In this document: positions 2,515 to 44,236 of the stretch, in pieces
Numbering within the stretch: the stretch's first letter is position 1
How the letters are laid out: each line of letters starts with the position of its first letter
Source of the DNA: an uncultured Pseudomonadota bacterium
GTDB taxonomy: Bacteria > Pseudomonadota > Gammaproteobacteria > Steroidobacterales > Steroidobacteraceae
Assembly: GCA_903884105.1 (NCBI GenBank)
Contig: CAISDJ010000121.1
Span: forward strand, 1 to 64,000
Length of the DNA: 64,000 nt
Direction: 5' to 3'
The notes under the pieces: generated by a model
Told to the model about the DNA's origin: nothing
The model's input: the letters and a program-made list of their open reading frames with translations, nothing else
Database searches by the model: none
Made by a program: the position numbers and the translations under genes

Positions 2515-2528
2515 TCGCGGCTTGATCG

Positions 2529-2570: not shown

Positions 2571-2612
2571 TCTGCTGGCGCAGCGTGGCAGCGTCGTGGA
2601 TATAGTCGGCGC

Positions 2613-2801: not shown

Positions 2802-2898
2802 GGCTCGATCATTTTGCGTAAGCATCTGGACGAAGTGCCACTGTGGCGTGGCGAGCATGTCGGCCTCCGATGGGCAAATGATCAACGTGTCTCCAGGC

Positions 2899-3309: not shown

Positions 3310-3471
3310 CGCTTTGGCGTCTTGCGCCGCGAGCGCTTCGAGACGGTCGAGAAGGCGGCACTTGATCCGCTGCCCCTCGGTGACGTGGACTACGGGGAGT
3401 GGAAAGAAGCCACGCCGCATGCCGACTGCTACGTCTATGTCGAGGGGATCCCACACGATGTTAGTATTCCA
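3310..3471 (+). pseudogene. C-terminal fragment of an IS21-family IstA transposase
   Basis: Directly after the DUF499 TAG, in the same frame, comes RFGVLRRERFETVEKAAL, DPLP, DYGEWKEA, then HADCYVYVEG and HDVSIP. IstA-type transposases have RREaFExIdxpALxPLP, Y-x-x-AeWkxAxv, and a following YSVP strand in their C-terminal beta domain. The catalytic DDE core, the rest of the protein and istB are absent, and no terminal repeats are visible. The junction with the DUF499 tail at 3309/3310 suggests that an insertion followed by deletion fused two remnants. Beyond about 3472 the reading frame loses resemblance. Confidence 0.5.
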
Positions 3472-3664
3472 GCTAGGGCAGCCGCGGCCTGCAGCGCGTG
3501 CGTCCAGGGGGTATCGGCAGGGGTATCGAGTGCCGCCCACCCACCTTGTGAGCCTGAAAAAAGCTTTTCTGGCAATTGTTCAACTCCGGCCGGGCACCAT
3601 GCTTGATCACGTCCTGTAGCATCTGGGAGAGGTCAAGTGCCGTGGACTCAGGTTTGTATGCTCC
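3472..3664. other. Unassigned non-coding stretch
   Basis: No frame on either strand gives a recognisable protein. It appears to be the tail of the degraded region. No convincing promoter for the following small membrane-protein gene was seen. Confidence 0.4.
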
Positions 3665-4036
3665 ATGAATGAAACTGCGCCGCAAGAACCGCCTCTTGAC
3701 GCATCGGATGAAAAGATGAGGCCTCGGGGCGACCGGGTCGACCTCGACAACGTCAGTTTGATGCAGCAGGCCATCCTCGATCGCGTCCGGCAGTCGCATC
3801 AGCGGGGTGCCTGGCTTCCCCGGATAACGCCGCTGCAGTGGGTTGTCTCCGCGGTCATTGCCGTCATTCTTGTTGCGGGGATCTTCAACGTCGTCGATGC
3901 AGGCCTGACCGCGTTTCAGAAGTTCGCCGAGGCGGCGACGCGGCCGCAGCCTGCTCAGGCGGCCGAGCCCCAGGCGCCGGTGGACGCTTCGGAGCCGATT
4001 GCCATCATGGTGGTCCCGGAAAGCGCCGGCAACTGA
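3665..4036 (+). CDS. Hypothetical single-pass membrane protein
   Basis: 123 residues from the ATG at 3665. The N-terminal half is charged and probably cytoplasmic, with a short predicted helix (SLMQQAILDRVRQSHQR). One strong transmembrane segment follows at about residues 58-79 (VVSAVIAVILVAGIFNVVDAG), then a short Ala/Pro/Gln-rich tail ending MVVPESAGN. I do not recognise a family. The DMT transporter gene starts 49 bases after the stop, so the two may be co-transcribed. The ribosome-binding site is weak. The alternative of a spurious frame is less likely given the coherent membrane topology. Confidence 0.55.
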   Translation: MNETAPQEPPLDASDEKMRPRGDRVDLDNVSLMQQAILDRVRQSHQRGAWLPRITPLQWVVSAVIAVILVAGIFNVVDAGLTAFQKFAEAATRPQPAQAAEPQAPVDASEPIAIMVVPESAGN

Positions 4037-4085
4037 ATCGCCGGTGTCCTCGACGCCGCAGCATCAACCTCCCTGGGACATCATC

Positions 4086-4535
4086 ATGGCTTGGCTCTTC
4101 ATCCTGTTCGTGGTCTTGATCGGTGCCGGCCTGCCATTGCAGGCACTGGTCAACGCGCGACTTGGCGTGCTCACGTCGGGCTCCATTTTCGCTTCGTCGC
4201 TCTCGATCCTGGTCAGCATGATCGTGGCTGTGGTGTTCCTGTTGCTCCAGCGCCCGACGTTCCCGCCGCTTGATCAGCTGGCCCGCCTGCCGCCTTGGAT
4301 GTGGGTGGGCGGAGTCGTAGGCGGCTGCTACGTGATCGCTGCGACGCTGGGTGTGCCCAGGGTGGGGGCTGCCGGCTTTGTCGCGCTCGTCGTCCTCGGG
4401 CAGATGATCGGTTCCCTGATTCTTGATCATTTCGGCATCCTGCACCCGGCCCAGCCGGCCACTGCAACGCGCCTATTGGGGGTCATTCTGGTGATGGCCG
4501 GCATGCTGCTCGTGCTGCAGCCCTGGCGGCGCTAA
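4086..4535 (+). CDS. DMT-family transporter (DUF606/YdcZ type)
   Basis: 149 residues from the ATG at 4086, chosen because it directly opens the first membrane helix (MAWLFILFVVLIGAGLPLQ). The frame is open further upstream but that part is Pro/Ser-rich and non-homologous in look. There are five hydrophobic segments; the motif QALVNARLG in the first loop and a GAAGFVALVVLGQMIGSLILDHFG segment are typical of DUF606 proteins, half-size members of the drug/metabolite transporter superfamily that usually pair as dimers. The inner-membrane location is certain enough; the substrate is unknown. A clear terminator follows. Confidence 0.85.
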   Translation: MAWLFILFVVLIGAGLPLQALVNARLGVLTSGSIFASSLSILVSMIVAVVFLLLQRPTFPPLDQLARLPPWMWVGGVVGGCYVIAATLGVPRVGAAGFVALVVLGQMIGSLILDHFGILHPAQPATATRLLGVILVMAGMLLVLQPWRR

Positions 4536-4538
4536 GGG

Positions 4539-4558
4539 CCGGCACCGCCGGGCTTTTT
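4539..4558 (+). terminator. Rho-independent terminator after the DMT gene
   Basis: The stem CCGGC-ACC-GCCGG is followed by GGC and five Ts, starting three bases after the TAA stop. Confidence 0.75.
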
Positions 4559-4570
4559 CGGGTCAGAAGG

Positions 4571-4602
4571 GCAGGAGGGCTGGCCTCCTGCGGGCCAGCT
4601 TT
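4571..4602 (+). other. Two overlapping, mutually exclusive hairpins
   Basis: GCAGGAGG at 4571-4578 pairs perfectly with CCTCCTGC at 4584-4591. GCTGGCC at 4579-4585 pairs perfectly with GGCCAGC at 4593-4599 and is followed by TTT. The two stems share bases, so only one can form at a time. They lie upstream of the predicted sucA promoter. Confidence 0.5.
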
Positions 4603-4655
4603 GGGGCGGGGAGGGAGCGGCATCGCAGAATTCCCGTAGTGGAGGCCCCTGCCTT

Positions 4656-4685
4656 TTTTCATTTTGGGGGATCATCGGCTACACT
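4656..4685 (+). promoter_or_regulatory. Putative sigma-70 promoter of sucA
   Basis: A -35-like TTTTCA (4656-4661) is separated by 18 bases from a -10-like TACACT (4680-4685). The expected start lies about 60 bases before the sucA ATG. The match is four of six at each box. Confidence 0.4.
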
Positions 4686-4749
4686 ACGCGCCCGCTGCGG
4701 CCGGAGGCCGTGGCAACCTTCCTCTGAAATCACAGGAACTTACGCGCGA

Positions 4750-7626
4750 ATGAGCGACTCTTTGCGAGCTTTGCTCGAGTCCACGCCGTTAGGCGAAGGC
4801 AATGCCCCCTACCTTGAATCCCTCTACGAACAGTTTCTGGCCGACCCAGATTCCGTAGACGCCCGTTGGCGCGACTACTTTCGCGGCTTGAAGAGCGGCG
4901 GCGCGACTGAGACGGCGCACGGCCCGATTCGTGAAGAACTGGCAAAGCGCGCTCGGGACGCCCGTGTTGTGGCGCCTGCTGCCGCATCGGCCAGCAGCGA
5001 GGATTCCGAGAAGCAAGCGTCTGTCGCCCGCCTTGTGCAGGTGTACGCGAACCGTGGCCACTTGAGTGCGGACATTGACCCGCTCGGTCTGCTCAAGCGG
5101 CCGGTACCGGAAGTCCTCAAGCTCGAGTATTACGGGTTGTCGAGCGCCGACCTCGAGAAGGAATATTTTGCAGGCCGCGGTCAGGCGTCCAATCCCAAGC
5201 GGCAGAAGCTCAAGGACATCATTGCGCAGCTCAAATTCACCTACTGCGGCAAGATCGGCGCGGAATTCGCGCATGTCTCCACGACCGATGAGCGGCTGTG
5301 GCTGCAGGATCGCTTCCAGCGCGGCCGCGCCGAGTTCCGTCTGTCCGCAGAGGAGCGCAAGACAGTACTGCGCAACCTGACGGCAGCAGAAGGCCTCGAG
5401 CGCTATCTCGCTACGCGGTACCCGGCACAGAAGCGCTTTTCCCTGGAAGGGGGTGACAGCCTCATCCCGCTGCTGGATGACCTCATCCAGCAAGGCGGTG
5501 CGGCTGGCGTGGAGGAAATCGTCTTCGGCATGGCCCATCGCGGCCGCCTGAACGTGCTCGTGAACGTCATGGGCAAGTCGCCACAGGCACTGTTCTCCGA
5601 GTTCGACGGCACCTACGACGTCAATCACATGCAGGGCTCGGGCGACGTCAAGTACCACAAGGGATTTTCGGTGGACGTGCGGACGCCGGGTGGCAATGTG
5701 CACCTTGGGCTCGCATTCAATCCGTCCCACCTCGAAGTGGCCAATGCGGTTGTCGAAGGCTCAGTGCGCGCGCGCCAGCAGCGCCGCAATGACACGGCGG
5801 GCGACAAGGTGGTGCCGGTAGTCATGCACGGTGACGCGTCGTTTGCAGGCCAGGGCGTGGTCATGGAGACGCTGCAGATGTCGCAGGCGCGCGGCTTCTA
5901 TACCGGCGGCTCCGTCCACGTGATCATCAACAACCAGGTCGGTTTCACGACGTCTAACCCGCTCGATGCGCGTTCAACGCAGTACTGCAGCGACGTGGCG
6001 AAGATGATCGAAGCGCCGATTTTCCACGTGAACGGCGACGATCCTGACTCTGTCGTGTTCGTCACGCGGCTCGCGCTCGAATACCGCATGAAGTTCCACA
6101 AGGACGTCGTGATCGACCTCGTCTGCTATCGACGCCTCGGCCACAACGAAGCCGATGAGCCGGCAGCGACGCAGCCGGTGATGTACCAGGTCATCCGGCA
6201 GAAGCCGACGACGCGTCAGCTCTATGCGGAGCGTCTGGTTCAGGAACAGGTCATCAAGATCGAGGATGCCGATGCGCTCGTCGAGCAGTACCGCAAGGAA
6301 CTCGACGAAGGCAAATCACAGGCCAAGCAGTCGCTGGGCCTGATCGGCAACAAGTACACCGTCGACTGGACCAAGTACGCGCAGGCCGACTGGCACGAAA
6401 TCGTCACGACAGGAGTGAAGACGGAAACCCTGCGCGATCTCGCGACCAGGCTGACGCAACTGCCATCGAATCTGACGCTGAACCGGCAGGTCGCCCGTAT
6501 CGTCCAGGACCGCGAGAGGATGACGGCAGGGCAGTTGCCCTCGGACTGGGGCTATGCCGAGACGCTGGCCTACGCGAGCCTGTTGTCGGAGGGCTTCGAG
6601 ATCCGCCTCGTGGGCCAGGATGCCGGACGCGGCACGTTCTTCCACCGTCATGCCGTGTGGCACGACCAGACGACCGGCGAATCCTACACGCCGCTCAAGA
6701 ACCTGAGTCCGAGCCAGCCGCGGTTCACCGTCATCGATTCGCTGCTGTCCGAAGAAGCCGTCATGGGCTTCGAGTACGGATTCTCGACGACGGAGCCCAA
6801 CTGCCTGACCATCTGGGAAGGCCAGTTTGGCGACTTCGCGAACGGCGCCCAGGTGATCATCGACCAGTTCATCAGTTCCGGTGAGGCCAAGTGGGGTCGC
6901 CTGTGCGGTCTCGTGCTGTTCCTGCCGCACGGCTACGAAGGGCAGGGGCCAGAGCATTCTTCTGCGCGCCTCGAGCGGTTCCTGCAGCTGTCGGCCGAGA
7001 ACAACATGCAGGTCTGCGTGCCTTCGACGCCGGCCCAGATGTTCCACATGCTGCGTCGGCAGATGGTTCGCACGCTGCGCAAGCCGCTCGTCGTCATGAC
7101 GCCGAAGAGCCTGCTGCGCCACAAGCTGTCGGTTTCCGCGCTTGAGGACCTGAGTCGCGGCACGTTCCAGAACGTCATCGACGAGATCGACGAAGTCCAG
7201 CCTGCGAAGGTCAAGCGCGTGGTGCTCTGCTCGGGCAAGGTGTATTTCGACCTGCTTGAGTCGCGTCGTACGGACGGCGTCCGCGAAGTCGCAATCGTGC
7301 GCATCGAGCAGCTGTATCCATTCCCGACCGAGGAATACGCAGCGATCCTCAAGCGGTATCCGAACGCCCGGGACGTCGTGTGGTGCCAGGAAGAGCCGCA
7401 GAACCAGGGTGCGTGGTACCAGATCCGCCATCAGTTGCAGCGTCCGCTCAGCTCGAAGGATCGTTTGCTGTATGCGGGCCGGGCACCGGCGGCGGCGCCT
7501 GCAACGGGCATTGCCAAGCTGCACGTGCAGCAGCAGAAGGGGCTGGTCGATGCGGCACTGCGGGCCGAGAGCAACGAAGAGTCGCTGCGGGAAACCGTGC
7601 GTCTCAAGTCGCCAGCACTCAAGTAG
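4750..7626 (+). CDS. sucA: 2-oxoglutarate dehydrogenase E1 component
   Basis: Thiamine-diphosphate-dependent decarboxylase of the 2-oxoglutarate dehydrogenase complex, which converts 2-oxoglutarate to succinyl-CoA with E2 and E3. 958 residues from the ATG at 4750; an open stretch upstream is ignored because this ATG begins the family N-terminus ([20 protein letters not shown]) and has CAGGAA about ten bases before it. Visible signatures: the ThDP site [11 protein letters not shown] ending in [28 protein letters not shown], and the C-terminal transketolase half ([21 protein letters not shown]). The length is slightly above the usual 930-950. First gene of a sucA-sucB-lpd operon. Cytoplasmic. 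Confidence 0.97.
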
Positions 7627-7702
7627 TAGTCGCCGGCGACGCCAAGGGTCATTTACCGGCCATGGTGCCGGGCACAGCACAAGGGAATCAGGGCATAAGT
7701 CA

Positions 7703-8869
7703 ATGAGCATCGAAGTCAAAGTTCCGCAGTTACCCGAGTCGGTTGCCGACGCGACGCTGGTCACCTGGCGCAAGCAGCCGGGTGAAGCCGTGACCCGTGG
7801 CGAGAGCCTCGTCGATCTCGAGACCGACAAGGTCGTGCTGGAAGTGCCGGCACCAGCGTCCGGTGTGCTGCTCGAGATCAAGATGGCGAACGGCGCCACC
7901 GTGACGAGCGGCCAGGTACTGGCCACGCTTGAAGAGGGTGCGGTCGGCACTGTCCCCGCAACAGCTGCTGCTGCCGCGCCTGCGGCCCAGAGCAGCGCTG
8001 CCGACAAGTCCGGTCCTGCAGCCCGCCGCCTCATCGAAGAGAACAAGCTCGATGCCAGCAAGATTGCATCCACCGGCAAGGATGGCCGCGTCACCAAGGG
8101 TGATGTGATCCAGCATCTCGCGAAGCCCGCAGCCGCGGCACCGGCCGTTGCGCTGGCCCCTGCGGGCGCGCGTGCCGAACAACGCGTCCCGATGACGCGC
8201 CTGCGTGCCCGCATCGCCGAACGCCTGATCCAGGCGCAGGCTTCCGCAGCCATGCTCACGACCTTCAATGAAGTGGACCTGACGGCAGTAAACGAACTGC
8301 GCAGCCGCTACAAGGACAAGTTTGAAAAGGCCCATGGCGTCAAGCTGGGGTTCTCGTCGTTCTTCATCAAGGCCGCGATCGAAGCCTTGAAGAAGTTCCC
8401 GGCCGTGAATGCTTCGATCGATGGCAATGACATCGTTTACCACGAGTTCTACGACATCGGCGTGGCAGTCTCAACGGACCGCGGCCTGATGGTGCCGGTC
8501 CTGCGCAACGTCGAGAACCTGGGGTTCGCGGAGATCGAGTCGGCGGTCAGTGCCTACGCGACGCGTGCGCGCGATGGGTCGATCACGATCGAGGAGTTGA
8601 CTGGCGGCACGTTCACGATCACGAACGGGGGTGTCTTCGGTTCGCTGATCTCGACACCGATTCTCAACATGCCGCAGGTCGCGATTCTCGGCATGCACAA
8701 GATCCAGGATCGCGCCGTAGTCGTGAACGGCCAGATCGTCATCCGGCCGATGATGTATCTCGCGCTGACTTACGACCATCGCATCGTCGACGGCCGCGAC
8801 TCGGTGCAGTTCCTGGTAGCCATCAAGGATGCGCTGGAAGACCCGGCGAGGTTGCTGCTCAATGTCTGA
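7703..8869 (+). CDS. sucB: Dihydrolipoyl succinyltransferase (E2 of 2-oxoglutarate dehydrogenase)
   Basis: 388 residues from the ATG at 7703. One N-terminal lipoyl domain carries the lipoylated lysine in [11 protein letters not shown] (Lys43). An Ala/Pro-rich linker follows, then a peripheral-subunit-binding domain ([25 protein letters not shown]), then the acyltransferase core with the catalytic [13 protein letters not shown] near the C-terminus. It transfers the succinyl group from E1 to CoA and forms the core of the complex. It lies 76 bases after sucA, and its stop overlaps the start of the E3 gene by eight bases, so translation is probably coupled. The long frame open upstream of the ATG overlaps sucA and is not part of the gene. 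Confidence 0.97.
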
Positions 8870-10289
8870 CCAGTACGACGTCATCGTCATCGGTGCCGGC
8901 CCGGCCGGCTACCCCTGCGCCATTCGTGCCGGCCAGAACAAGCTTAAAGTCGCCTGCATCGATGAATGGCAGAACCACGATGGCAGCTATGCCTTCGGGG
9001 GTACCTGCCTCAATGCCGGTTGCATCCCGTCAAAGGCACTCCTCGAGTCGTCCGAGTTGTACCATCGCGCACAGGCCGAATTCGCCGTCCATGGCATCAG
9101 GCTGTCCGGCGTCAGCTTCGATGTGGCCACGATGCAGAAGCGCAAGGCCCAGATCGTCAAGCAGTCGACTGCCGGCATCGCGTCACTGTTGAAGGGTGCG
9201 GGCGTCACCGCCCTCGTCGGTCACGGCAAGCTGTTGCCCGGCAACAAAGTTGAATTCACGGACAAGGATGGCAAGCAGCAGGAGCTATCCGCCAAGCATG
9301 TCGTGCTCGCATCGGGTTCCATCCCGACGGAGCTCAGGAGCCTGCCGTTCGACGGCAAGGACATCGTTGATTCGTGGGGTGCGCTCGAATTCGATGTAGT
9401 GCCGAAGCGCCTCGGTGTTATCGGTGCCGGTGTCATCGGCCTCGAACTCGGCAGCGTTTGGCGTCGCCTCGGCGCAGAAGTCGTCGTCCTCGAAGCGATG
9501 GAGGCATTCCTGCCGATGGCCGACAAAGCGGTAGCCAACGAAGCCCTGAAGCACCTCAAGAAGCAGGGCCTCGATATCCGCCTGGGCGCAAAGGTGTCCG
9601 GTGCCGACAAGGCCAAGGACGGGGTCGTTCTCAAGTACACGGATGCGCAGGGAGAGCAGAGTGTCACTGTGGACAAGGTCGTGGTCGCCATCGGGCGCCG
9701 CCCTTTCACCAAGAACCTGTTGGCAGACGGTACGGGCGTCGAACTCGACGAGCGTGGTTTCGTCAAGGTGGATCACGAGTGCCGTACGGCGGTTCCCAAT
9801 GTATGGGCCGTGGGCGACCTCGTGCGTGGGCCGATGCTCGCGCACAAGGGCAAGGAAGAGGGCGTGGTGGTCGCGGACCTCATTGCCGGGCTGCATGGCG
9901 AAGTGAACTACGACCTGGTGCCCTCGGTGATCTACACGGCGCCGGAGATTGCCTGGGTCGGCCAGACCGAAGAACAGGTCAAGGCCAGTGGCCGGGCATA
10001 CAAGGTCGGTTCCTTCCCGTTCATGGCGAGTGGTCGCGCGCGCGCCATGGAGGCCGGAGCTGGCTTCTGCAAGATGATTGTTGCGACGGACGACGATCGC
10101 ATCCTCGGCGTGCACATTATCGGCCCGATGGCCGGTGAGTTGCTGGCAGAGGCGGTCCTCGCGATGGAGTACTCGGCCAGTGCCGAGGATTTGCAGCGGA
10201 CCATGCATGCCCATCCGACCCTGTCGGAGGCGTTGCACGAAGCCGCGCTCGGTGCAGACAAGCGCGCAATCGACTTCCCGAACCGCTGA
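8862..10289 (+). CDS. lpdA: Dihydrolipoamide dehydrogenase (E3)
   Basis: 475-residue FAD flavoprotein that reoxidises dihydrolipoyl groups of E2 with NAD+. The start is the ATG at 8862, inside the last codons of sucB. Motifs: FAD-binding GAGPAGY (residues 11-17), redox-active disulfide [10 protein letters not shown] (Cys49 and Cys54), NAD-binding [17 protein letters not shown], second FAD motif [14 protein letters not shown], and the C-terminal active-site base region [15 protein letters not shown]. Length and motifs are those of class I disulfide oxidoreductases. Being third in the sucAB operon, it presumably serves this complex, though E3 is often shared with pyruvate dehydrogenase. A perfect hairpin follows. 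Confidence 0.96.
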
Positions 10290-33021: not shown

Positions 33022-33900
33022 ATGGAGAAATTGCCCGATCCCGTTGATTCCCCTAAGGGAACAGGCCGCACTGGCCCCGACATCAGCAGCGAGCCTGTTT
33101 ATTGGGACCTGGGTGAATCCCGGAGCTACGGCCAGTACCTCGACCTCGACCGGTTGCTGAGTGCGCAGCACCCGTTGTCGTTCCAGCATGACGAGATGCT
33201 CTTCATCATCATCCACCAGGCGAGCGAGCTGTGGATGAAGCTCTGCCTGCACGAGCTGAATGCGGCTCGCGAACATGTTCGGCGCGATGAACTCGGGCCC
33301 GTCTTCAAGATGCTGGAGCGCGTCTCGCGCATCCAGCAGCAGCTGGTGCAGTCCTGGGACGTGCTGGCCAGCATGACGCCCGCCGACTACTCGGCGTTTC
33401 GCAACTACCTCGGCAAGTCGTCAGGATTCCAGTCGTGCCAGTACCGGCTGCTCGAGTTCACGATCGGCAACAAGCGCGCCGAGATGATCGAGGTCTTCCG
33501 CAAGGAGCCTGAGAATTTCGCGGCCCTGCAACGGGCGCTGGCAAGCCCGAGTCTCTATGACGAGGCGTTGCGCCTGCTCAGCCGTCGCGGATTTGAAATA
33601 CCCGCCGACTACCTTGATCGCGACTGGACGCAGCAGTACGTACCGAGCAAGCAGGTTGCAGCGGCCTGGCTCGCGGTGTACCACAGTGTTGACGATCACT
33701 GGGACCTGTATGACCTTGCCGAACGGCTGCTCGACCTCGACCACAAGTTCCAGCTATGGCGCTACAGCCACATGAAGACGGTGGAGCGGATCATCGGCTA
33801 CAAACGGGGCACCGGCGGGACCGGTGGCGTCTCTTATCTCGCCAAGCTCCTCGAACTGCAGTTCTTCCCGGAGCTCTGGTCGATTCGAACCGCGATGTGA
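33022..33900 (+). CDS. kynA: Tryptophan 2,3-dioxygenase
   Basis: 292-residue heme enzyme opening the indole ring of tryptophan to N-formylkynurenine. Conserved: YGQYLDLDRLLSAQHPLSFQHDEMLFIIIHQASELWMKL, SSGFQSCQYRLLEF and the heme-ligand region WRYSHMKTVERIIGYKRGTGGTGGVSYL. Full length with an intact C-terminus (FFPELWSIRTAM). No kynureninase or formamidase gene lies nearby. Its last 57 bases plus one base are duplicated about 7.96 kb downstream, and the accessory island begins right after the stop. Confidence 0.96.
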   Translation: MEKLPDPVDSPKGTGRTGPDISSEPVYWDLGESRSYGQYLDLDRLLSAQHPLSFQHDEMLFIIIHQASELWMKLCLHELNAAREHVRRDELGPVFKMLERVSRIQQQLVQSWDVLASMTPADYSAFRNYLGKSSGFQSCQYRLLEFTIGNKRAEMIEVFRKEPENFAALQRALASPSLYDEALRLLSRRGFEIPADYLDRDWTQQYVPSKQVAAAWLAVYHSVDDHWDLYDLAERLLDLDHKFQLWRYSHMKTVERIIGYKRGTGGTGGVSYLAKLLELQFFPELWSIRTAM

Positions 33901-33901
33901 G
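33844..33901 (+). repeat. Left copy of 58-bp direct repeat (kynA 3' end)
   Basis: Starts AAGCTCCTCGAACTGCAG and ends at the base after the kynA TGA. 57 of 58 bases match 41802-41859; the only difference is T33862 versus C41820. It bounds the accessory island on the left. Confidence 0.9.
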
Positions 33902-33997
33902 GGCGTTTTTGCGCAAATAGAGCCGATTTTCGACTTCGCTGGGAAGATCCTGCTCACATAGTCTTGCTCGTCCCCATTCGTCGCAGGGACGCGAGTC

Positions 33998-34882
33998 ATG
34001 TCGGTCGTCGCCCGTGTGTGGCGACCGCGCGCGCCCCCGTTTCTCGATCCGCCTGGCTACCTCCGCCATCGGCCTGAAGCGACGCTGCTGTATCGACTGG
34101 TCAAGCAGCATTGTCCCGCTTTCCGTGAGCTGCGCGCCGAGGCGGGCCGCGCGCTGCCCGGCTATGTTGCCGAGGAGTTCGACGCCTGCCTCAAGTGCGG
34201 CCGGCTGGAGGAGGGGTTTCTGCGCCTGCGCTGCGAGCAATGCCATGCCGAGAAGCTGGTGGTGTTCAGTTGCAAGAATCGAGGCTTTTGCCCCTCGTGT
34301 GGCGCCCGCCGTATGGCCGAGACCGCCGCACTGCTGGCCGATGCGGTGCTGCCCGAGCAGCCGCTACGACATCGGGACGGCACCACCCACATTGTCCTCA
34401 AGCCACTGCACCTGATCGCTCGCTTGGCGGCACTGGTGCCGCCGCCGCGGATGCATTTGACGCGTTACCACGGTGTCTTTGCTCCGCACAGCAGGTTCCG
34501 GGCAGCGGTGACGTCAGCGCACCGGGGTGCGGGGTCGCCGAAACAGTCTGTGCCCTCTGGTGAGCAAGACAGGCCTGCGGCAACGCGGCACCTGGCGATG
34601 AACTGGGCGCGGCGGCTCAAGCGGGTGTTCGGCACCGAGATCGACACCTGCACCCGCTGCGGCGGCAAGCTGGGCATCCTTGCCAGTATCGAAGAACCCG
34701 CCGTCATTGCGCGCATCCTCGGATGGCAGTCGTCCGAAGGCTCTTCATCGTGCAAGGCAAGGCAGGGCGGGTCTGCGGTGTTTCTTCGTGCCGACGAAGT
34801 ATTGCCAATGGACATAAGGCCGTTTATACGTCCTATCCACGCTGACGCCGGTGCCTCGTGGATCGCGGGCGAGACGGCATGA
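33998..34882 (+). pseudogene. IS91/ISCR-family transposase with internal in-frame deletion
   Basis: 294-residue frame. Residues 1-122 match the N-terminal zinc-binding part of IS91-type rolling-circle transposases (CLKC, then RCEQCHAEKLVVFSCKNRGFCPSCGARRMAETAALLADAVLPEQP; seven cysteines at about 64-101). Directly after PEQPL comes RHRDGTTHIVLKPLHLIARLAALVP, which belongs near the C-terminus of the intact protein, then LTRYHGVFAPHSRFR, WARRLKRVFGTEIDTCTRCGG and EEPAVIARILG. About 190 residues carrying the HUH/tyrosine catalytic region are missing, yet the frame is kept. Beyond about residue 245 the frame runs into the downstream repeat and is not homologous. It cannot be an active transposase. 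Confidence 0.85.
34731..34840 (+). repeat. oriIS-like direct repeat, left copy
   Basis: 110 bases just after the transposase C-terminus. It contains a perfect hairpin CTTCGT-GCCG-ACGAAG and ends CGTTTATACGTCCTATCCAC. It matches 36499-36614 apart from a 5-base AAGGC insertion, a 1-base insertion and one substitution in the right copy. Position (3' of the transposase) and end sequence resemble the replication origin of ISCR elements. Confidence 0.8.
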
Positions 34883-34977
34883 GCTCTGCGCCACGTTTCG
34901 CGACGGCTCTATGGCCGCCGGGTTGTGTCTGCCGGCGCCACTTGCGCGTGACTACAGTTTATTGACGGGAGTTGTTC

Positions 34978-36380
34978 TTGATCGAATCTTCCAAGGGTCG
35001 TTACGGACTCAAATCGAGCTGCCTACGCTTCCCAGAGATCCTCGCGCAGTCGGTAGCGAATATTTCACCCACGCTGACGCCGGTCGTGATCGTGCCGCTG
35101 GTGTTTGCCTCTGCCGGGACGGGAACGTGGCTTGCGTACCTGTTCGCGACGATCGGCATCATGCTGGTGGGAGCGAACATCAATCAGTTTGCCCGCAACT
35201 CCGCGACGCCCGGTTCGCTGTACTCTATGTGTCTCGCGGTCTGGGCGTAAATATGGGCTTCGTGGCGGGCTGGTCATTATTGCTTGCCTACGTCCTGACG
35301 GCCGCTGCGGTGCTGGCGGGTGCCGTTAACTGCGCGCTGCTGCTGTTCTCGCTCCTGCACTGGCAGGTGCCGCCGCTGTTGTTGTTTGCCGTCGGCTGCT
35401 TCGTGGCGTGGCTCGTCGCCTATACCGATGTGCGGCTATCGACTCGCCTGATGCTGCTGCTGGAATTGGTATCGATGGCGCTCATCCTGGTACTTGGCGT
35501 GATCGTCATGCTGCGGGGTGGCGAGGTACTGGACGCGCGCCAGATAACGCTTCGCGGTCTGGATTTCCATGGTCTCAAGGCCGGTCTGGTGCTGGCGATT
35601 TTCAGTTACGTCGGTTTCGAGAGTGCCACCACCCTCGGTGAAGAAGCTCGCAATCCCCTCAAGAGCATTCCCCGCTCCGTGCTGCTATCCGGGCTTATCA
35701 GTGGGCTCTTCTTCATGATGTCGGCTTACATCGCGGTGCTGGGTTTCAAGCACATCAGTGGATCGTTGGCGGACAGCGCGGCGCCTTTCAACGACCTGGC
35801 AGTGAACGTCGGTCTGCCGCTGTTCGGTGTGCTGATCTCGGTCGGCGCTGTGATCAGTCTTTTTGCCTGCACTTTGGCCAGCATTAACGCCGCGGCCCGG
35901 GTGCTGCTTGCAATGAGTCGGCATGGCATCTTTCACAGCCGACTGGCCGGATCCCATGCGCAGAACGACACGCCGCATCACGCGCTAACGCTGGTGTCGC
36001 TGCTGGTGTTTCTGCTGCCGGCAGGCTTGCTCTACGAGGGGCGGGGCGTGTTGGGTGTGTTTAATGACCTGAGCACGATTGCCACCTACGGCTTTCTGAC
36101 GGTGTACGTACTCGTGGCGATAGCGGCACCGCTGTATCTGGCGCAGCGCGGCCAGATGACCGTCAAAAGCCTGGGTTTGGCGCTGCTCGCGCTGCTGTTC
36201 ATGCTGCCGCCGGTGATCGCTACCGTGTATCCAACACCGCTTCCGCCTGCCGATAAGTTTGTCATGTATTTTGGCCTTTACCTGGCCGTTGGGCTTGGCT
36301 GGTATGGCTGGCTGCGGCTGCGTGGCTCCGGGGAGCTGCTGGCGGCGAGTTCGCGCGAGCTGGAGTTGGATCATCCGTAG
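34978..36380 (+). pseudogene. APC-superfamily amino-acid permease, frameshifted
   Basis: The N-terminal part reads from TTG 34978 (GGGAG six bases upstream): IESSKGRYGLKSSCLRFPEILAQSVANISPTLTPVVIVPLVFASAGTGTW, then LFATIGIMLVGANINQFARNSATPGSLY. It then runs into a stop at 35248. The remaining protein continues in another frame as YVSRGLGVNMGFVAGWSLLLAYVL to the C-terminus at 36380, with about ten membrane helices and the FSYVGFESATTLGEEARNPLKSIPRSV signature. Loss of one base near 35225 joins the two halves exactly, so the gene is a recent pseudogene or carries a sequencing error. It lies between the two oriIS-like repeats. Confidence 0.85.
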
Positions 36381-36498
36381 TGACAGCGGCGGCTTGCTCG
36401 GCGCCGTAGTCGTCATGTTGTCGGCATCAATTTGAATTGTTTCAATCGCATAAGGGAGAGTTTCGTGAAGCTTTAGTCGTATCGTGCAATTGTTCGCG

Positions 36499-36614
36499 CG
36501 TCCGAAGGCTCTTCATCGTGCAAGGCAAGGCAAGGCAGGGCGGGTCTGCGGTGTTTCTTCGTGCCGACGAAGTATTGCCAATGGACAGTAAGGCCGTTGA
36601 TACGTCCTATCCAC
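36499..36614 (+). repeat. oriIS-like direct repeat, right copy
   Basis: 116 bases, near-identical to 34731-34840, with no transposase sequence attached. It lies 32 bases before the second TonB receptor gene. The same CTTCGT-GCCG-ACGAAG hairpin is present. Confidence 0.8.
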
Positions 36615-36646
36615 ATTGAAGCAGGGTTTGCTGCCTATACTCCTGC

Positions 36647-39487
36647 ATGACAGTTCGCACCCTCCAGAGCGCCCCTGTGGCGATGCTGATGACCCTTGCC
36701 GCAGGCCTGACGTCGGCAGCAACCCAGAATGCCGCCGATCTCGAAGAGATCGTGGTCATCGGCTCCCGCATCCGCACCAGCCCCTTGCTGCGCGCCCAGC
36801 CGCTCTTCGAGATCGATGCGGAACAGATGGCACGGCAGGGGCTCAGTTCCACGGTCGATGCGCTACAGCGCATCCCGTCCGCTGGCGGTGGGCTGAACTC
36901 GAAGTTCAACAACTCGGGTAACGTCGGCAATCCGCCCGATGGCGGCGGTGTCGGGGCAGGGTCCGCGGAGATCGATCTGCGCTACCTGAGTTCGCGGCGC
37001 GTGCTGGTGCTGGTGGATGGCCTGCGCTGGGTGCCGGGTACCGCAGCCTCGGGCGTTCCGGGCTCGGTGGATCTCAATACGATTCCCACGGCCCTGATCA
37101 GTCGCATGGAGGTGCTGCAGGAAGGGGCCTCGCCGATTTACGGTTCCGACGCCATTGCCGGGGTGGTGAATCTCATCACCAAAAGCCGGCAGAACGGTCT
37201 GATCGCCAACGTGCAGATCGGCCAGACCGACCACGGCGACGGTGCCGCGCAGGACTTCAACGTCTCCTGGGGCGCAGGCACAGACACGACACAGCTCGTG
37301 GTCGGCGGCGGCTACTTCAGGCAAGAACCGATCTTTGCCGGGGACCGGGCCATCAGCCGCTACACGGCGCCGTTTGCCACGTCCTGCCTGCCCGGTGGCT
37401 GTAGCTCGGCGACGCCGCTGGGCCGCTTCCTCGTCAGCGACCCGAATACCGGGAGCAACCTGGACCTCACCTTGAACCAGGCGCTGCAACCGGGCCAACG
37501 TGCAGTGTATGTGCCGGGCGACCCGACCGGAGCGGCCTCCGGCTTCACGGCGTTTACCACCACTGACCGGTTCAACTTCCAGCCCTACAACTATCTCTCC
37601 ACGCCGTTGGAGCGCATCAGTGTGTTTGGGTCGCTGCAGCACACGATCAGCGATGCGGTGCAACTGCGCGTGCGCGCCAGTTACGTACAGCGCCTCTCCG
37701 CCAACCAGGGCGCACCGCTGCCCTTGTTCATCGGTCCGGATGCGGGCAACGGCAATCTGCTGGACACGCTCCACATCGATGCCACCAACCCTTACAACCC
37801 CTTCGGCTTCACGCTGCAGCCGGGCACGTTCTCGTTCCTGGGCCGGCGTCTCATCGAAAACGGGCCGCGCCATTATGCGCAGACCGTCGACACCTGGAAC
37901 CTGACGGGTGTGCTGTCGGGTGAATGGAGAGTGGCGGACAAAGACTGGCACTGGGACGTCAATGCGCTGTATTCGGGCAACCAGGCCCGGCAGGTGTTTA
38001 CGGGTAACGTGAATGCGCTGCGCGTGCAGCAGGCGCTGGGGCCGCTTGCACAGTGCACGGCCCCCTGCGTGCCGCTGAATCTCTTTGGCGGTGCCGGCAC
38101 CATCACGCCGGCGATGCTGGGCTTCGTGGCCTTTACCCAGCGCGATGCGTCCCAGCAGCAGCTGGCGGATGTCTCGGCCAACGTGACCGGCGATCTGCTG
38201 GACCTGCCTGCAGGCCCGCTGGCCTTTGCCGCAGGGCTGGAGCGCCGGCACACGCAAGGGTACTTCCACCCGGACGCCATTGTAGCGGCGGGCTTGTCGG
38301 CCGATATTCCGGCGCAGCCAGCCGAGGGCCAGATCACGGTCACTGAAGCCTACGGGGAACTGCGTCTGCCATTGCTGGCAGACAAGCCCTGGGTCCAGCG
38401 GCTGGAAGCCTCGGTCGCAGCCCGTGTGTTTGATTACTCCACCTCGGGAACCGGTCAGACCTACCAGGCAGGCCTGACCTGGCGGCCACTGCAGGAACTG
38501 CTGGTCCGCGGATCGTATGGACAGGGGTTCCGCAGTCCTTCGATCGGTGAGCTGTTCGGCACGGCGTCGCGCTTTGATCAGGAAATCAGCGACCCCTGCT
38601 CGGGCCTGCTGACCTCCGGGGCCAGTGCGGTCGTTCGCGCCAACTGCACGGCCCGCGGCGTGCCGGGCAATGGTGGCTATACCCAGCTCGGTTCGCAGAT
38701 CGCCGTGATCACCAGCGGCAACCGCAACCTCAAGCCGGAGACCAGTCAGAACCGTACGGTCAGTGCGGCCTGGGAGCCGGCAGCGCTGAAGGGCACTGCG
38801 TGGTCGCGTGATGTGTCGATTGAACTGGCCTATTCCGATATCGCCCTGGACCAGGCCATCCAGGCGCAGAACGGCCAGACCCTGCTGGATCGCTGCGCAC
38901 AGACTGGCGATGCCTTGTCCTGCGCCACGATTACCCGTTCGGCCTCCGGTCAGGTGACGGCCATCGCCAATCCCTTGATCAACATTGGCGGCATCCGTAC
39001 CCGCGCGCTGGACCTCACGCTGAATTGGCGCGCGCCCGAGTCGCAGGCCGGGCAGTTCGCGGTGTTCTGGTCCACCACGCGCTTGCTGGCGTTCAGCGAG
39101 TTCGTGCCCACCTCTGCCGGCCTGGCCACGATCGAACGCGTGGGCAGCGAGCGCGGCAGTCCGGACCAGGCGTTCCCGCAGATGAAATCCAACCTGATTC
39201 TGGATTGGAGCCGGGGCGGTTACGGTGCCACCGTGACCGGTCGCTACCTGTCCGCAGTCCGGGAGGCAGGGAACCCGCAGGCGCTGGGCGCGCGCACGTA
39301 TGTGGATGCACAGTTGCGCGCCACGCCGGCCTTCATCGGCGCCGGCTATGTGGTGGCCCTGGGTATCAACAATCTGTTCAGCGCAGAACCGCCTGGTTGC
39401 GTCACCTGTGCCATGAACAACTTTGACCCGAACGCCTATGACAATCCGGGGCGCTTGCTGTACCTGCGGCTGAGTTACGAGCAGTAG
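36647..39487 (+). CDS. TonB-dependent receptor (island-borne)
   Basis: 946 residues. Signal peptide of about 25 residues ([17 protein letters not shown]), TonB-box-like [12 protein letters not shown], plug domain with [61 protein letters not shown], then a large barrel ending YLRLSYEQ with a terminal aromatic strand. The type with IGSRI and a long loop-rich barrel is common in Caulobacter- and Steroidobacter-like bacteria and often takes up sugars or peptides; the ligand here is not predictable. It is intact, unlike the permease before it, and may be transcribed with the deaminase gene downstream. Confidence 0.92.
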
Positions 39488-39581
39488 GCAGACGTCTGTT
39501 CACACGCTGCGCTTTCTACCTAATGCCGCGGCAGCACAGTGAGGCCACACTGCAGGCGGTTTCCCTCACGCGAGCCTGAAG

Positions 39582-40034
39582 ATGGATGCATTCCTGCAAG
39601 CCGCCCTTGCCGAGGCAAGGCAGAGCCTCGCTGAAGGCGGCATTCCGATCGGGTCGGTGTTGGTGCACGACGGCGTCATCATCGGGCGCGGCCACAATCG
39701 GCGCCTTCAACAGGGCAGCGTGGTGTTGCACGCTGAACTGGACGCACTGGAGAATGCCGGGCGTCGTGCGGCACAGCTGTATCGACAGTGCGTGCTCTAC
39801 ACGACCTTGTCGCCGTGTGCGATGTGCTCGGGTGCGATCCTGCTGTATCGCGTCCCCCGCGTGGTGATCGGCGAAAACACGACGTTCACGGGTGAAGAGG
39901 TGCTCTTGCTTTCGCGTGGGGTTCAGCTGCAGGTGCTGCAGGATCCCGAATGCATAGGGCTGATGCGCGGCTTCATCGCGGCGCGAGCCGAGGTGTGGAA
40001 CGAGGATATCGGCGCATCCCCCTGTCAGAGGTGA
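39582..40034 (+). CDS. Cytosine deaminase-like nucleobase deaminase (yeast FCY1 type)
   Basis: 150 residues of the cytidine deaminase-like fold. Zinc site: HAELDALENAG (His and catalytic Glu) and SPCAMCSGAILLY (two cysteines). The rest (GGIPIGSVLVHDGVIIGRGHNRRLQQGS, VVIGENTTFTGEEVLLLSRGV, DPECIGLMRGFIA, EVWNEDIG) follows the small fungal-type cytosine deaminase rather than TadA or the large amidohydrolase CodA. The likely reaction is cytosine to uracil plus ammonia. It lies 94 bases after the TonB receptor inside the island. Guanine deaminase-like specificity cannot be excluded. Confidence 0.85.
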   Translation: MDAFLQAALAEARQSLAEGGIPIGSVLVHDGVIIGRGHNRRLQQGSVVLHAELDALENAGRRAAQLYRQCVLYTTLSPCAMCSGAILLYRVPRVVIGENTTFTGEEVLLLSRGVQLQVLQDPECIGLMRGFIAARAEVWNEDIGASPCQR

Positions 40035-40037
40035 TTC

Positions 40038-40410
40038 ATGCGACAACGGTTCAGTACGCGCTTTCCCTGGCTCCTTGTTCTGGTGCCAGGGATTTCCGGG
40101 CTGCAGGTCGCGGCTGCCGCCGCGACGGTTGACGTGCGTGTTGCGCTGAATGCCTGTCAGGGCCTGGTCGAGGAGCACCTGGCCGGCGTGATGCGCAGCG
40201 CCAGGCTTGTCGCGCGGACCCGTGAAGCCAAGACGGCTCGCTGGCAAATGGCCAAGCCTCTGCTCGATGCGTTTTCCGCGGATCTGGGTACCGATGCAAC
40301 GGTGTTCTAAGCGCTACCGGACGGGACCTATTACGCCACCAAAAGCGGTACGGTCACCGATCAGAATCCGAAGGACCGCCCTTACTTCGCTGCGCTGATG
40401 GCAGGCCCCG
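40038..40410 (+). pseudogene. Broken Cache-type sensor gene
   Basis: From the ATG at 40038 a signal-peptide-like start (FPWLLVLVPGISGLQVAAAAA) is followed by helical sequence to DLGTDATVF, where a TAA at 40308 interrupts. In the same frame the next residues are ALPDGTYYATKSGTVTDQNPKDRPYFAALMAG, the characteristic ligand-binding end of periplasmic Cache sensor domains. After MAG the similarity ends. So the gene has both a nonsense codon and a lost 3' part. Intact relatives would be sensor kinases, chemoreceptors or stand-alone sensors. Confidence 0.65.
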
Positions 40411-40625
40411 TGGCAACGACCGGCAATGCGCGAATATCCCTCAATGGCTTGAGGCACTTGAGTCGGTACATAAACTCGCCAAAAGCGATAACAAACGAGA
40501 GACCACCGCCAGTGACTCGATGCCGTCGAGCACGTATATTCTGCGTCACACCGAGCAGGCACGGACAATACCGGCCCTCCGGCGAATCCCCGCAGACGAT
40601 CCGATTGATTTCAGGAGCACTCACC

Positions 40626-41600
40626 ATGAAGCCCCCCCTTATCAGGACGCTCCTGCGGGCTACGGCCATGGCCATCGGCTTGACTCTGGCAGCGGCCACC
40701 GCAGCAAGCCCGGCGAAGATTTTCTATCTGACGCCTGATCTCAATTTTTCTTTTTGGCACAACATCGCGCAAGGCATCGCCGCCGAAGCCAAAAAGAGCG
40801 GATTCGAGCTTCAAGTACTCAGCAGTCATGACGATGGCGCGATTCAACTCCAAAATGCGCAGCAAGCCATCGCTGCCGGCGCGACTGGGATTGTGCTCAG
40901 CCCCACTGATTCATCCACGGCCCCCGCTGTGCTGGCCCTCGCCGAGCAGGCGAAAGTTCCAGTGGTGATCGCCGATGTCGGCACCAACAGTGGCAAGTAC
41001 GTGGCCTATATCAGCTCAGACAACCATACCGGCGCGTATCAAACCGGCCAGGCCTTGATATCGGCCTTACGGAAAAAGGGTTGGAACGGCGGCGACATCG
41101 CCTCCATCACGCTATCACTGGCCCGCAATAATGGCCGCTTGCGCAGTGCCGGATTCGCGCAAGCGCTCACGGAAGCGGGCGCCCAACTATCTGACACCCG
41201 CGAGATGAAAAGTTATACGGCGGATGAGTCGACGCAATTTACGCAGGAGCTATTGAGCAAGCACACGCAGCTGCGTGGCCTGTTCGTGCAAGCAGATATA
41301 CCCACCCTGGGTGCTGTACAAGCGATCCGCACAGCAAACCGCGGCCAATCACTTGCACTTGCCGCATTTGATGGCACCCCGGAATTCATTGACTTGATCA
41401 GACGAGGCGACGTACTGGTGTCGGGCATGCAGCAGCCGTACCTGATGGGACAGCGCGCGGGCGAAGCGCTGATCCTGCATCTGGCCAAGAAGCCGGTCGC
41501 GCCTGCCATTAACGTCCCCATTCTGATTGTGACCCATCAAAATATTGACGAGCTTCTGCCGATACTGCGCGAGACCGTATTTGCCAACGAGATCAGGTAG
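40626..41600 (+). CDS. Sugar-type periplasmic substrate-binding protein
   Basis: 324 residues from the ATG at 40626 with AGGAGC eight bases upstream. Signal peptide (ATAMAIGLTLAAATAAS), then a type I periplasmic-binding fold of the ribose/galactose family: KIFYLTPDLNFSFWHNIAQGIAAEAKKSG, AIAAGATGIVLSPTDSSTAPAVLALAEQAKVPVVIADVGT, ISSDNHTGAYQTGQALI, FVQADIPTLGAVQAIR. It should deliver a sugar or related ligand, but no ABC permease or ATPase gene is present. Base composition is lower in GC than the neighbourhood. It may instead feed the upstream sensor gene, now broken. Confidence 0.88.
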   Translation: MKPPLIRTLLRATAMAIGLTLAAATAASPAKIFYLTPDLNFSFWHNIAQGIAAEAKKSGFELQVLSSHDDGAIQLQNAQQAIAAGATGIVLSPTDSSTAPAVLALAEQAKVPVVIADVGTNSGKYVAYISSDNHTGAYQTGQALISALRKKGWNGGDIASITLSLARNNGRLRSAGFAQALTEAGAQLSDTREMKSYTADESTQFTQELLSKHTQLRGLFVQADIPTLGAVQAIRTANRGQSLALAAFDGTPEFIDLIRRGDVLVSGMQQPYLMGQRAGEALILHLAKKPVAPAINVPILIVTHQNIDELLPILRETVFANEIR

Positions 41601-41801
41601 ATCCGATCGGCTAAGAATTTGCATGACGGCCGAACGATGCGCTCGAACACAGGTATTTGCCGTGCCCAATAGTGACGCCGGCACAACTTTGGCGACGACC
41701 TTGGAGGCTGGGCGGCATTCCACGGCACCCGCGGCCGCGTCAGGCGCGGCACGGGTCAATTGCTTCCGCGGTTTGTCGGATCTGGTGCCGGCGGAGGGAA
41801 T
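41601..41801. other. Non-coding right end of the island
   Basis: No recognisable gene, terminator or transposon end was seen between the binding-protein stop and the right repeat. Confidence 0.4.
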
Positions 41802-41859
41802 AAGCTCCTCGAACTGCAGCTCTTCCCGGAGCTCTGGTCGATTCGAACCGCGATGTGAG
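41802..41859 (+). repeat. Right copy of 58-bp direct repeat (kynA 3' end)
   Basis: Carries the kynA codons from AAGCTCCTC to the TGA stop plus one base, with one mismatch to 33844-33901. The rest of kynA is absent here, so this copy is only a footprint. Confidence 0.9.
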
Positions 41860-42061
41860 TGCTGTTAGCTGGTCGCGTCGTTGTCGAGCGGGGCGATGCT
41901 GGCGACCTGCGTTGCCAGCTTGCCGCGCCCTGAACTGCATTCTCGTCATGGATGGCGGTTATGCACCTATCGGTCTGGTCGCGCGCCGTCAAACGATGCA
42001 TGATAGACAGTGCGCTTCCGAGAGTTCGGGGCCAATCACACTTCAAGATAAGGAAGAGACA
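41860..42061. other. Intergenic region between island and CDGSH gene
   Basis: Nothing recognisable apart from an AAGGAAGAG ribosome-binding site immediately before the next gene. Confidence 0.4.
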
Positions 42062-42301
42062 ATGAGCACGCCCCACATTGCAGATACGAAGCCCGTCGGT
42101 GTCGCCGTCGAGGCAGGCAAGGACTACTACTGGTGTTCCTGCGGCAAGAGCGCTTCGCAGCCCTTCTGCGACGGTTCGCACGCAGGAAGCGAGTTCTCGC
42201 CCACCAAGTTCACCGCGCCCGAGACCAAGACGGTCTACTTCTGCGCCTGCAAGCAGTCCAAGAACGGCCCGCTCTGCGACGGTTCGCACAAAGCGCTCTA
42301 G
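42062..42301 (+). CDS. CDGSH-type iron-sulfur protein
   Basis: 79 residues from the ATG at 42062, with AAGGAAG upstream. Two CDGSH motifs bind two 2Fe-2S clusters: WCSCGKSASQPFCDGSH and FCACKQSKNGPLCDGSH, each with the 3-Cys-1-His spacing C-x-C-(x)n-C-D-G-S-H. This is the tandem, MitoNEET-inner-NEET-like bacterial architecture. Function is likely redox or iron-sulfur handling in the cytoplasm; partners are unknown. The longer open frame upstream has no similarity. Confidence 0.9.
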   Translation: MSTPHIADTKPVGVAVEAGKDYYWCSCGKSASQPFCDGSHAGSEFSPTKFTAPETKTVYFCACKQSKNGPLCDGSHKAL

Positions 42302-42630
42302 CCGGCTCGGGTCGCCGCCTGCACAAAGCGTGTCACGCTCAGGCAGGCTGCGGCCCATCCTCTCTGTCCCCAGTTTCGGGGCTGTGAGCAGGAGTCCGCC
42401 ATGTCTCTCTTCCGTCTCGTCCTTATCCTCTGTTCCGCTCGCCCTCATGTGACAGCGTAGCCACGAGTAGCCAAGAGTGTGGCACGCGGTGAATCTCTAG
42501 GCGGAGTCGAGTGCCGTGCTGGCCTGGCTCCTCGACGAGCGCGTGGATCAGTAGCAGGCTGTTCATCCGTCCTATCCGCCAGGCACGGGCGACCGCCTTG
42601 CCTTCGGGCTTTGGAAGAACCCAGTCTGGG
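42302..42630. other. Unassigned region between CDGSH gene and msrQ
   Basis: 329 bases with no recognisable protein on either strand and no clear terminator. Confidence 0.4.
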
Positions 42631-43254
42631 CTATCCCTGCGAAGCCGTCCGCGCTCGGCGTTGCCGTGCCTTCCAGACTCGCCAGCCGAGCAACAGCGTG
42701 AAGATCGCGGCGTACGTGAGTGGCTCGCGCACATCTGCCTTCACCAGCCAGTAGAAATGCCAGACGCCGAGGATGGCGATCGGATAGACGAGGCGGTGCA
42801 GCTTCTTCCAGCGCCGCCCCAGCTTGCGCATCATGCCGTTGGTGGACGTGACGGCCAGCGGAATCAGCATCAGGAACGCGACGAAGCCGAGGGTGATGAA
42901 GGGCCGCTTGACGATGTCCTTCACGATGCCGGCCATGTACAGCTGCTGGTCGAGGATGAGCCAGACCAGAAAGTGCATCAGCACGTAGAAGAAGGCGTAG
43001 AGGCCCAGCATGCGGCGGAAGCTCAGGAGCCACGGCTTGCCGACGATGTCTTTCAGCGGGGTCACCAGCAGCGTCAGGACCAGGAACTTGAGTCCCCATT
43101 CGCCGAGCGCATGCAGGATGTCTTCGACCGGGTTGACGCCGAGGGTCTGCCCCGCGATGCCGAAGGCGCCGGCCGCCATCTGCAGGAAGGGTACGAGGCA
43201 GACGATGAAGAGGATCGGCTTGTAGATCCGATCGATTTGCTGCTGCCGGGTCAC
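42631..43254 (-). CDS. msrQ: Heme-binding membrane subunit MsrQ
   Basis: 207 residues from a GTG 13 bases after the msrP stop. Six hydrophobic segments of the ferric-reductase-like family: KPILFIVCLVPFLQMAAG, ALGEWGLKFLVLTLLVTPL, RMLGLYAFFYVLMHFLVWLILD, PFITLGFVAFLMLIPLAVTS, RLVYPIAILGVWHFYWLV and YAAIFTLLLGW. Conserved histidines in the third and fifth helices are expected heme ligands. It passes electrons from the cytoplasmic side or quinones to MsrP for periplasmic methionine sulfoxide repair. Start alternatives lie inside msrP. Confidence 0.92.
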   Translation of the reverse strand: MTRQQQIDRIYKPILFIVCLVPFLQMAAGAFGIAGQTLGVNPVEDILHALGEWGLKFLVLTLLVTPLKDIVGKPWLLSFRRMLGLYAFFYVLMHFLVWLILDQQLYMAGIVKDIVKRPFITLGFVAFLMLIPLAVTSTNGMMRKLGRRWKKLHRLVYPIAILGVWHFYWLVKADVREPLTYAAIFTLLLGWRVWKARQRRARTASQG

Positions 43255-43267
43255 GAAACGGGCTTGT

Positions 43268-44236
43268 TCAGTAGTTCTTGCGCAGGTCCAAGCCGGCATA
43301 CAGGCTTGCAACCTGGTCGGCATAACCGTTGAACATCAGCGTGGGCTGCCGTGCGGCAAACAGGCCCGTGCCGATCGCCTGCTCGCGAGCCTGGCTCCAG
43401 CGCGGGTGATCGACTTCCGGGTTCACGTTTGCATAGAAGCCATACTCGCGTGCGGCTGAGCGGTTCCACGAGGTTGCCGGCTGCTTCTCGGTGAAGCGGA
43501 TCTCGACGATCGACTTGATGCCCTTGAATCCGTATTTCCACGGCGTGACGAGCCGCATCGGCGCGCCGCTCTGGTTCGGCAGCGTCTTGCCGAAAACGCC
43601 GACGGCCATGATCGCGAGCGGGTTCATGGCCTCGTCAATGCGCAGGCCTTCGACGTACGGCCATTCGAGCACCGGATAGCGCAGACCGGGCATTTCGCTC
43701 GGGCGGTTCACCGTGGTGAACGCGACGTACTTGGCCTTCGATGTCGGCTTGAAGCGCTTCAGCAGGTCGCCCAGCGGGAACCCGACCCACGGAATGACCA
43801 TCGACCATGCTTCCACGCAGCGCATGCGGTAGATGCGCTCTTCGAGCGCGTGGGGCTTCAGGATGTCCTCGTAGCTGAAGTCGCCGGTGACTTCGGCTTC
43901 GCCCGAGACCTTGATTGTCCAAGGCTGTGGCTTGAACTTGCCCGAGTTCTGCGCGGGGTCGGACTTGTCCGTGCCGAACTCGTAGTAGTTGTTGTAGGAA
44001 GTGACTTCCTCATAGCGGTTGGGCTTGAGGTCGGCGCCGAACGCCTTGTTCTTGGTGTACTTGAGGTCCGCCTGGGCAGCCTGCGCTGCTTCTACGGTCT
44101 CCGTCGAGAGGACTGTTCCGACCAGGCCCGACGCGACGGCTGCCTTAAGGAAGGTGCGCCGGTTCTCATAGACCGACTCGGAGATGATTTCCGAAGGCTT
44201 TACGCCGCCAAGGTACTCGGGTCGTTTGATCAGCAT
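43268..44236 (-). CDS. msrP: Periplasmic methionine sulfoxide reductase catalytic subunit MsrP
   Basis: 322-residue molybdopterin enzyme of the sulfite-oxidase fold (YedY). The Tat signal [21 protein letters not shown] indicates folded export. The Mo-ligand cysteine is in [20 protein letters not shown]; further conserved blocks are [36 protein letters not shown] and [18 protein letters not shown]. It reduces oxidised methionines in periplasmic proteins, receiving electrons from MsrQ encoded just downstream. Intact and full length. Confidence 0.96.

Follow-up and report, generated by a model that had tools for sequence, protein, structure and literature searches.

How did the last bases of kynA, the gene of tryptophan 2,3-dioxygenase, come to be repeated almost 8 kb downstream of the complete gene, behind a run of DNA that looks accessory? 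The question is raised by a stretch of 64,000 nucleotides (the window; positions 1 to 64,000 of contig CAISDJ010000121.1, forward strand, assembly GCA_903884105.1) from an uncultured bacterium of the family Steroidobacteraceae. An original prediction, made from the DNA letters alone, had compared the arrangement with an integrative element that uses a gene 3' end as attachment site. The answer appears to lie with a mobile element of a familiar kind in surroundings unusual for it. A decayed insertion sequence common region (ISCR) element seems to have collected genes from a number of related bacteria and deposited them next to kynA, along with a duplicated scrap of that gene's end. Behind the kynA stop codon lies a truncated ISCR, oriIS sites stand at joints between segments, the cargo matches several genera and a 5'-truncated copy of kynA comes after it. 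On balance, it is probable that the insertion is the product of a decayed ISCR (IS91-like, Y2/HUH) element and that the duplicated kynA end is the scar of rolling-circle capture and recombination; the order of events proposed below is modelled on the published route to complex class 1 integrons.

The kynA repeat and the true limits of the insertion

The kynA gene (33022-33900, forward strand; TIGR03036 above cut-off, Pfam) is complete, as had been predicted, and the repeat of its end exists as it had been described. The left copy (33844-33901) and the right copy (41802-41859, forward strand, a 5'-truncated kynA 3' end) agree over 58 bases with one mismatch (98.3% identity) at a spacing of 7958. 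In a search of the 3.73-Mb assembly the 58-base sequence gave two matches, both on the window's contig. When direct repeats were sought in the window at a minimum length of 50 bp and a minimum identity of 85%, only two pairs emerged, the second being a 116-bp pair (34731-34840 and 36499-36614) within the same insertion. A repeat by chance was ruled out by the identity over 58 bases, the two matches per assembly and the rarity of such repeats in the window. The right copy translates in frame to the stop codon (KLLELQLFPELWSIRTAM-stop), with a change of F to L. It is probably the changed copy, because the congener G001 carries the base of the left copy at the mismatch.

In the same congener, the kynA stop codon is followed by about 14 bp and then by sequence aligning to window position 42656 onward, which is msrQ, convergent with kynA. 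Since kynA abuts msrQ in G001, the insertion is, by this alignment, the DNA from about 33901 to about 42650. In the window, msrQ (42631-43323, reverse strand; NF003831 above cut-off) is the native right flank; it has an altered C-terminal tail and congener homology resumes at 42656. The accessory interval proposed beside kynA is then a real insertion, absent from G001, but the right edge assigned to it, 41859, was misplaced: the insertion continues for about 790 bp beyond the right repeat copy, and the two copies do not stand at both true edges. The expectation that strains free of the island would join kynA directly to 41860 failed as well, the congener joining kynA to msrQ. Among 27 further genomes of the family with kynA, msrQ lies within -31 to 103 bp of the kynA end in 12; it was not seen near kynA in the other 15, where the downstream sequence often extends for merely 1.1-1.5 kb. 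That the interval could be ancestral core DNA was ruled out by the congener and by these 12 loci, in all of which the distance from kynA to msrQ is about 100 bp or less.

The closest named relatives found for this kynA belong to Steroidobacter and Peristeroidobacter (76-79%), which makes a host of the Steroidobacteraceae probable from the gene itself. In four of five records of these genera, kynA and msrQ are separated by 667-7438 bp, and in the fifth no msrQ was found within 10 kb of kynA. Other open reading frames (ORFs) occupy the gaps, and kynA is not duplicated there. In two Steroidobacter-group genomes (L132 and L135) the gap is filled by 6-7 kb of unrelated ORFs, again with kynA unduplicated, marking the spot as insertion-tolerant. 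As both genes abut, we infer that any insertion sparing kynA and msrQ must begin near the kynA stop codon, and that the position alone is therefore no evidence of a site-specific process.

The ISCR remnant and its oriIS sites

The first ORF after kynA is a degenerate ISCR/IS91-like transposase gene (33902-34719, forward strand), whose 5' region begins at the kynA stop codon. A zinc ribbon (Pfam Zn_Tnp_IS91) and the tail of the Y2 domain were recognised in it by family profiles and by alignment to fuller relatives. The best NCBIfam match is ISCR_clade_Ia (E 8.6e-75); its 252 bits fall below the cut-off of 925, as a deletion in the catalytic core would lead one to expect. About 705 bp of this core are missing at 34371 by comparison with G009:C10, and profile positions 140-178 of 183 alone remain of Y2_Tnp, so that the Y2/HUH core is not intact. 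Judged by these matches, the transposase is of the ISCR lineage and clade Ia-like. Among the matches listed, 15 of 20 plasmid records are transposase matches in blaAFM contexts. With the ISCR clade Ia elements of these contexts, the present copy shares the transposase family and an oriIS similar to that of ISCR1, but it differs by the core deletion and by an uncertain terIS. A lost terIS was at first thought likely; the left ends of ISCR copies in the family, when compared, were found to differ, and terIS may be either lost or kept here.

The 22-base oriIS of ISCR1 was taken from PMC13023784 and compared with the window. Module 1 (34731-34840, forward strand) carries an end site at 34819-34840 that agrees with it at 17 of 22 positions, and the same kind of end occurs in G174:C234, G174:C148 and G183:C84. 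Module 2 (36499-36614, forward strand) is a 94% copy of module 1 with an end site at 36593-36614 (16/22), which ends one base before the homology of the next cargo segment starts. A third, degenerate oriIS-like site (42556-42579, forward strand) matches at 42558 with 15/22 and has three mismatches to site 1. Two segment joints and the neighbourhood of the insertion's right edge are thus occupied. At a threshold of at least 15/22, chosen after the third site had been seen, these three sites (34819, 36593 and 42558) are the only ones in the window, all inside the insertion and all on the forward strand; 40 Markov simulations of the window gave a mean of 0.375 sites, and at 16/22 or more none against two in the window. 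In 31 ISCR loci of the family (336 kb), 27 sites were counted at 15/22 or more and 18 at 16/22 or more, against 6 and 1 in 30 control loci (424 kb). The ISCR loci are selections (31 in this count, 28 in the repeat count below); L157/L158 and L115/L130 share contigs, and in the oriIS count L120/L160 overlap.

The oriIS ends at the joints and the truncated ISCR after the kynA stop codon argue for rolling-circle transposition and recombination rather than for attachment-site use. Of the proposed likeness to an integrative element, one part holds, namely an accessory insertion partly flanked by a duplicated kynA end and free of a tyrosine-recombinase match; the use of that end as an attachment site is the less likely reading.

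A mosaic cargo matching several genera

The insertion is a mosaic, its cargo matching different genera of one family. Segment B (34848-36498, forward strand) is an amino-acid permease pseudogene (Pfam AA_permease) with its frame broken near 35250. It is 94.5% identical to G156:C125 (genus g23) over 34848-36475, with 23 further bases beyond a gap, and the reading frame of the G156 counterpart is intact. Segment C (36615-40406, forward strand; Pfam, NCBIfam below cut-offs) matches G237:C39 (genus g21) at 88% and encodes a TonB-dependent receptor (36647-39487), a TadA-like deaminase (39582-40034) and a broken downstream ORF. Segment D (40407-41801, forward strand) encodes a periplasmic sugar-binding protein; over 40408-41801 it is 94.3% identical to G156:C132 (genus g23) and 89% to G155:C32. 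It ends in the last 19 bases of a tRNA-Thr gene on the reverse strand. This gene is intact in G155; in G156 its 3' half is found there and the intact gene about 1 kb further on. Beyond the right kynA copy, segment F (41860-42552, forward strand) carries a gene for a CDGSH iron-sulfur protein (about 42061-42301; zf-CDGSH) and a fragment at 42475-42540 with 85-92% matches to four loci of the family, putatively named vapC from its sequence context. The same context led us to drop an earlier identification of this fragment as an ISCR tail. Among the matches listed for the bacterium's own assembly, with 2 of 90 candidate stretches scored, the only further copy of any part of B, C or D is a 74% match in the region of the deaminase. 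No resistance gene was recognised among the families named in the cargo.

Two side observations concern the segment ends. The broken ORF of segment C (40038-40406) is the N-terminal part of a secreted sensor-like ORF, interrupted by a stop codon at 40308 and by the C/D joint, and no Pfam family was found for its first 90 residues. The stretch of about 1 kb between the intact tRNA-Thr gene and its 3' half in G156:C132 (L105, 1954-3088) contains an antitoxin-like ORF, so named by reading.

The diversity of these matches, in an assembly of 144 contigs, could also result from an assembly or binning chimera, in which pieces of other bacteria were misjoined. This is very improbable: several misjoins within 9 kb would be required, the DNA on either side of the insertion is that of the host, in the order seen in the congener, and the two kynA copies differ in sequence. 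Furthermore, the permease and the transposase are broken here, unlike the intact permease of G156. The joints themselves bear on a further explanation, in which a template switch during replication, or some other illegitimate event, duplicated the 58 bases of kynA in the course of joining the cargo, independently of ISCR activity. Several joints are blunt and the D/kynA joint has no visible microhomology, as this explanation would allow, but it has no place for oriIS ends at two joints or for an ISCR at the left edge, and we consider it improbable.

Other ISCR loci and the integrase alternative

Direct repeats of the same definition (at least 50 bp, at least 85% identity) occur in 10 of 28 ISCR loci of the family and in 1 of 30 control loci, the repeat of this control (L136) being a local tandem. 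Among the ISCR loci, the repeat of L157 does not adjoin the transposase, and those of L119 (G141:C137) and L155 (G009:C30) extend to the ends of their contigs, the least reliable parts of an assembly. Duplicated oriIS modules were seen in G009:C10 and G168:C95. In L119, a 2707-bp unit made of a gltD-like fragment (named by reading) and an ISCR is present in tandem, both copies ending at an oriIS; the structure may be a circle or a multimer left by rolling-circle replication, or an effect of assembly. In L155, the bases joined to an oriIS-like remnant at 3825 duplicate, over 649 bp and as far as the contig end, a sequence found about 2.9 kb upstream; the junction may be that of a circle.

Gene or tRNA ends serve as the repeat, as with kynA, in G025:C50 and G129:C63 only. 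In the former (L154, reverse complement, 1644-9149), a guaA-like 3' end, named by reading, lies about 250 bp ahead of an ISCR transposase; a conjugation coupling protein comes next, and then the guaA-like 3' end returns as a 146-bp copy. The arrangement resembles a GIsul2-type island, here in an environmental bacterium. The coupling protein weakened G025:C50 as a candidate second case of the process seen at kynA. In G129:C63 the repeat consists of tRNA-Met-like ends to the left of the ISCR. In L156, where a tRNA-Met half had been named by reading, no tRNA is found by ARAGORN.

These loci are compatible with a different origin of the kynA duplicate. A tyrosine-integrase island could have entered at the kynA 3' end, the left copy being attL and the right copy attR, with an integrase since lost or acting from elsewhere, an ISCR of separate origin and segment F as an earlier insertion at the same place. 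The repeat is indeed the 3' end of a gene, leaves that gene restored and runs to its stop codon; a tRNA-Thr end closes segment D, and G156 has a repeated 3' half of this tRNA gene at a distance of about 1 kb from the intact one. The guaA-like ends of G025:C50 enclose a coupling protein and an ISCR, and an integrase that targets guaA and also moves an ISCR2 unit (GIsul2) is described in PMC9376610. As in GIsul2 (CR2-sul2), an integrase island at the guaA 3' end, gene 3' ends are repeated here with an ISCR inside, but the edges misfit, no tyrosine-recombinase match lies on the contig and the guaA core GAGTGGGA is absent from the kynA end. The eight Phage_integrase matches of the assembly are all on other contigs, in agreement with the integrase reported missing by the original prediction; serine recombinases were not searched for. 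Moreover, the empty site is kynA joined to msrQ and not to 41860, and no third kynA end stands at the true right edge. None of 20 other kynA loci, with 1.4-17.8 kb examined downstream of each, has a second kynA end beyond one 19-base chance match. Among these 20 loci there is no example of the duplicated kynA ends that the original prediction proposed to search for next to tyrosine recombinases. The integrase nearest to kynA among the matches listed for 36 genomes lies about 8 kb downstream, in G036, and should be a core enzyme of the XerC/XerD type, because it is the best match of its genome and scores like the best matches of other genomes. A literature search gave no report of kynA as the integration site of an integrase or genomic island. 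Finally, the ISCR after the left copy and the oriIS sites at the joints are left unexplained by an integrase, and this origin is judged unlikely.

Proposed course of events

The order of parts at kynA, a segment followed by an ISCR, cargo and a truncated copy of the segment, is that of complex class 1 integrons. Those of the In6/In7 type contain ISCR1 and a partial duplication of the 3' conserved segment (3'-CS). Both they and the present locus run from a gene end through the ISCR, its oriIS and the cargo to a 5'-truncated second copy. Here, however, neither intI1, attI nor the 3'-CS was found, with no Phage_integrase match on the contig; the duplicate is 58 bp of the end of a chromosomal catabolic gene, the transposase is broken and no resistance gene was recognised among the families named. 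PMC7707992 derives complex class 1 integrons from two aberrant rolling-circle rounds starting at oriIS, a circle and homologous recombination through a shared segment; a similar scenario with one-ended transposition appears in PMC13023784. The same model can be applied here, the end of kynA taking the role of the 3'-CS.

By analogy, the ISCR would initially have adjoined kynA. Rolling-circle replication from oriIS would have overrun the element leftwards into kynA and halted 58 bases in, and the unit kynA end - ISCR - oriIS would have moved onto other DNA. Later rounds may have extended further left, through D, C and B, before a crossover within the 58 bases returned the resulting circle to a kynA locus. 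The product would be kynA - ISCR - oriIS - B - oriIS - C - D - kynA end, and then F.

Several points weigh against this course. The ISCR is dead, and therefore no movement can be seen. The 58 bases available for a crossover are close to the minimum at which recombination is efficient. Segment F would already have to lie beside kynA in the recipient, an intermediate that was not found; the C/D and D/kynA joints have no oriIS; and terIS is uncertain here, left ends differing among the copies of the family. The 28 ISCR loci, 18 of which have no repeat, yielded no unambiguous further example of a duplication like that of kynA. As G025:C50 and G129:C63 have the appearance of integrase islands with an ISCR inside, in the manner of GIsul2, repeats near an ISCR need not stem from it.

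Significance for the family

Elements of the ISCR type are known for spreading resistance genes between pathogens, and their movement has been deduced mostly from the resistance plasmids of clinical bacteria. It is conceivable, and we propose it tentatively, that chromosomal islands in this environmental family arise through ISCR elements, which would capture the 3' end of any gene next to them and use this homology to re-enter chromosomes. If this is true, the route to complex integrons would be a general, integron-independent way to move ordinary genes between species. A chromosomal, non-clinical case with neither an integron nor recognised resistance cargo would allow the circle-rescue model to be tested independently, and it would suggest where ISCR elements gather genes before reaching pathogens.

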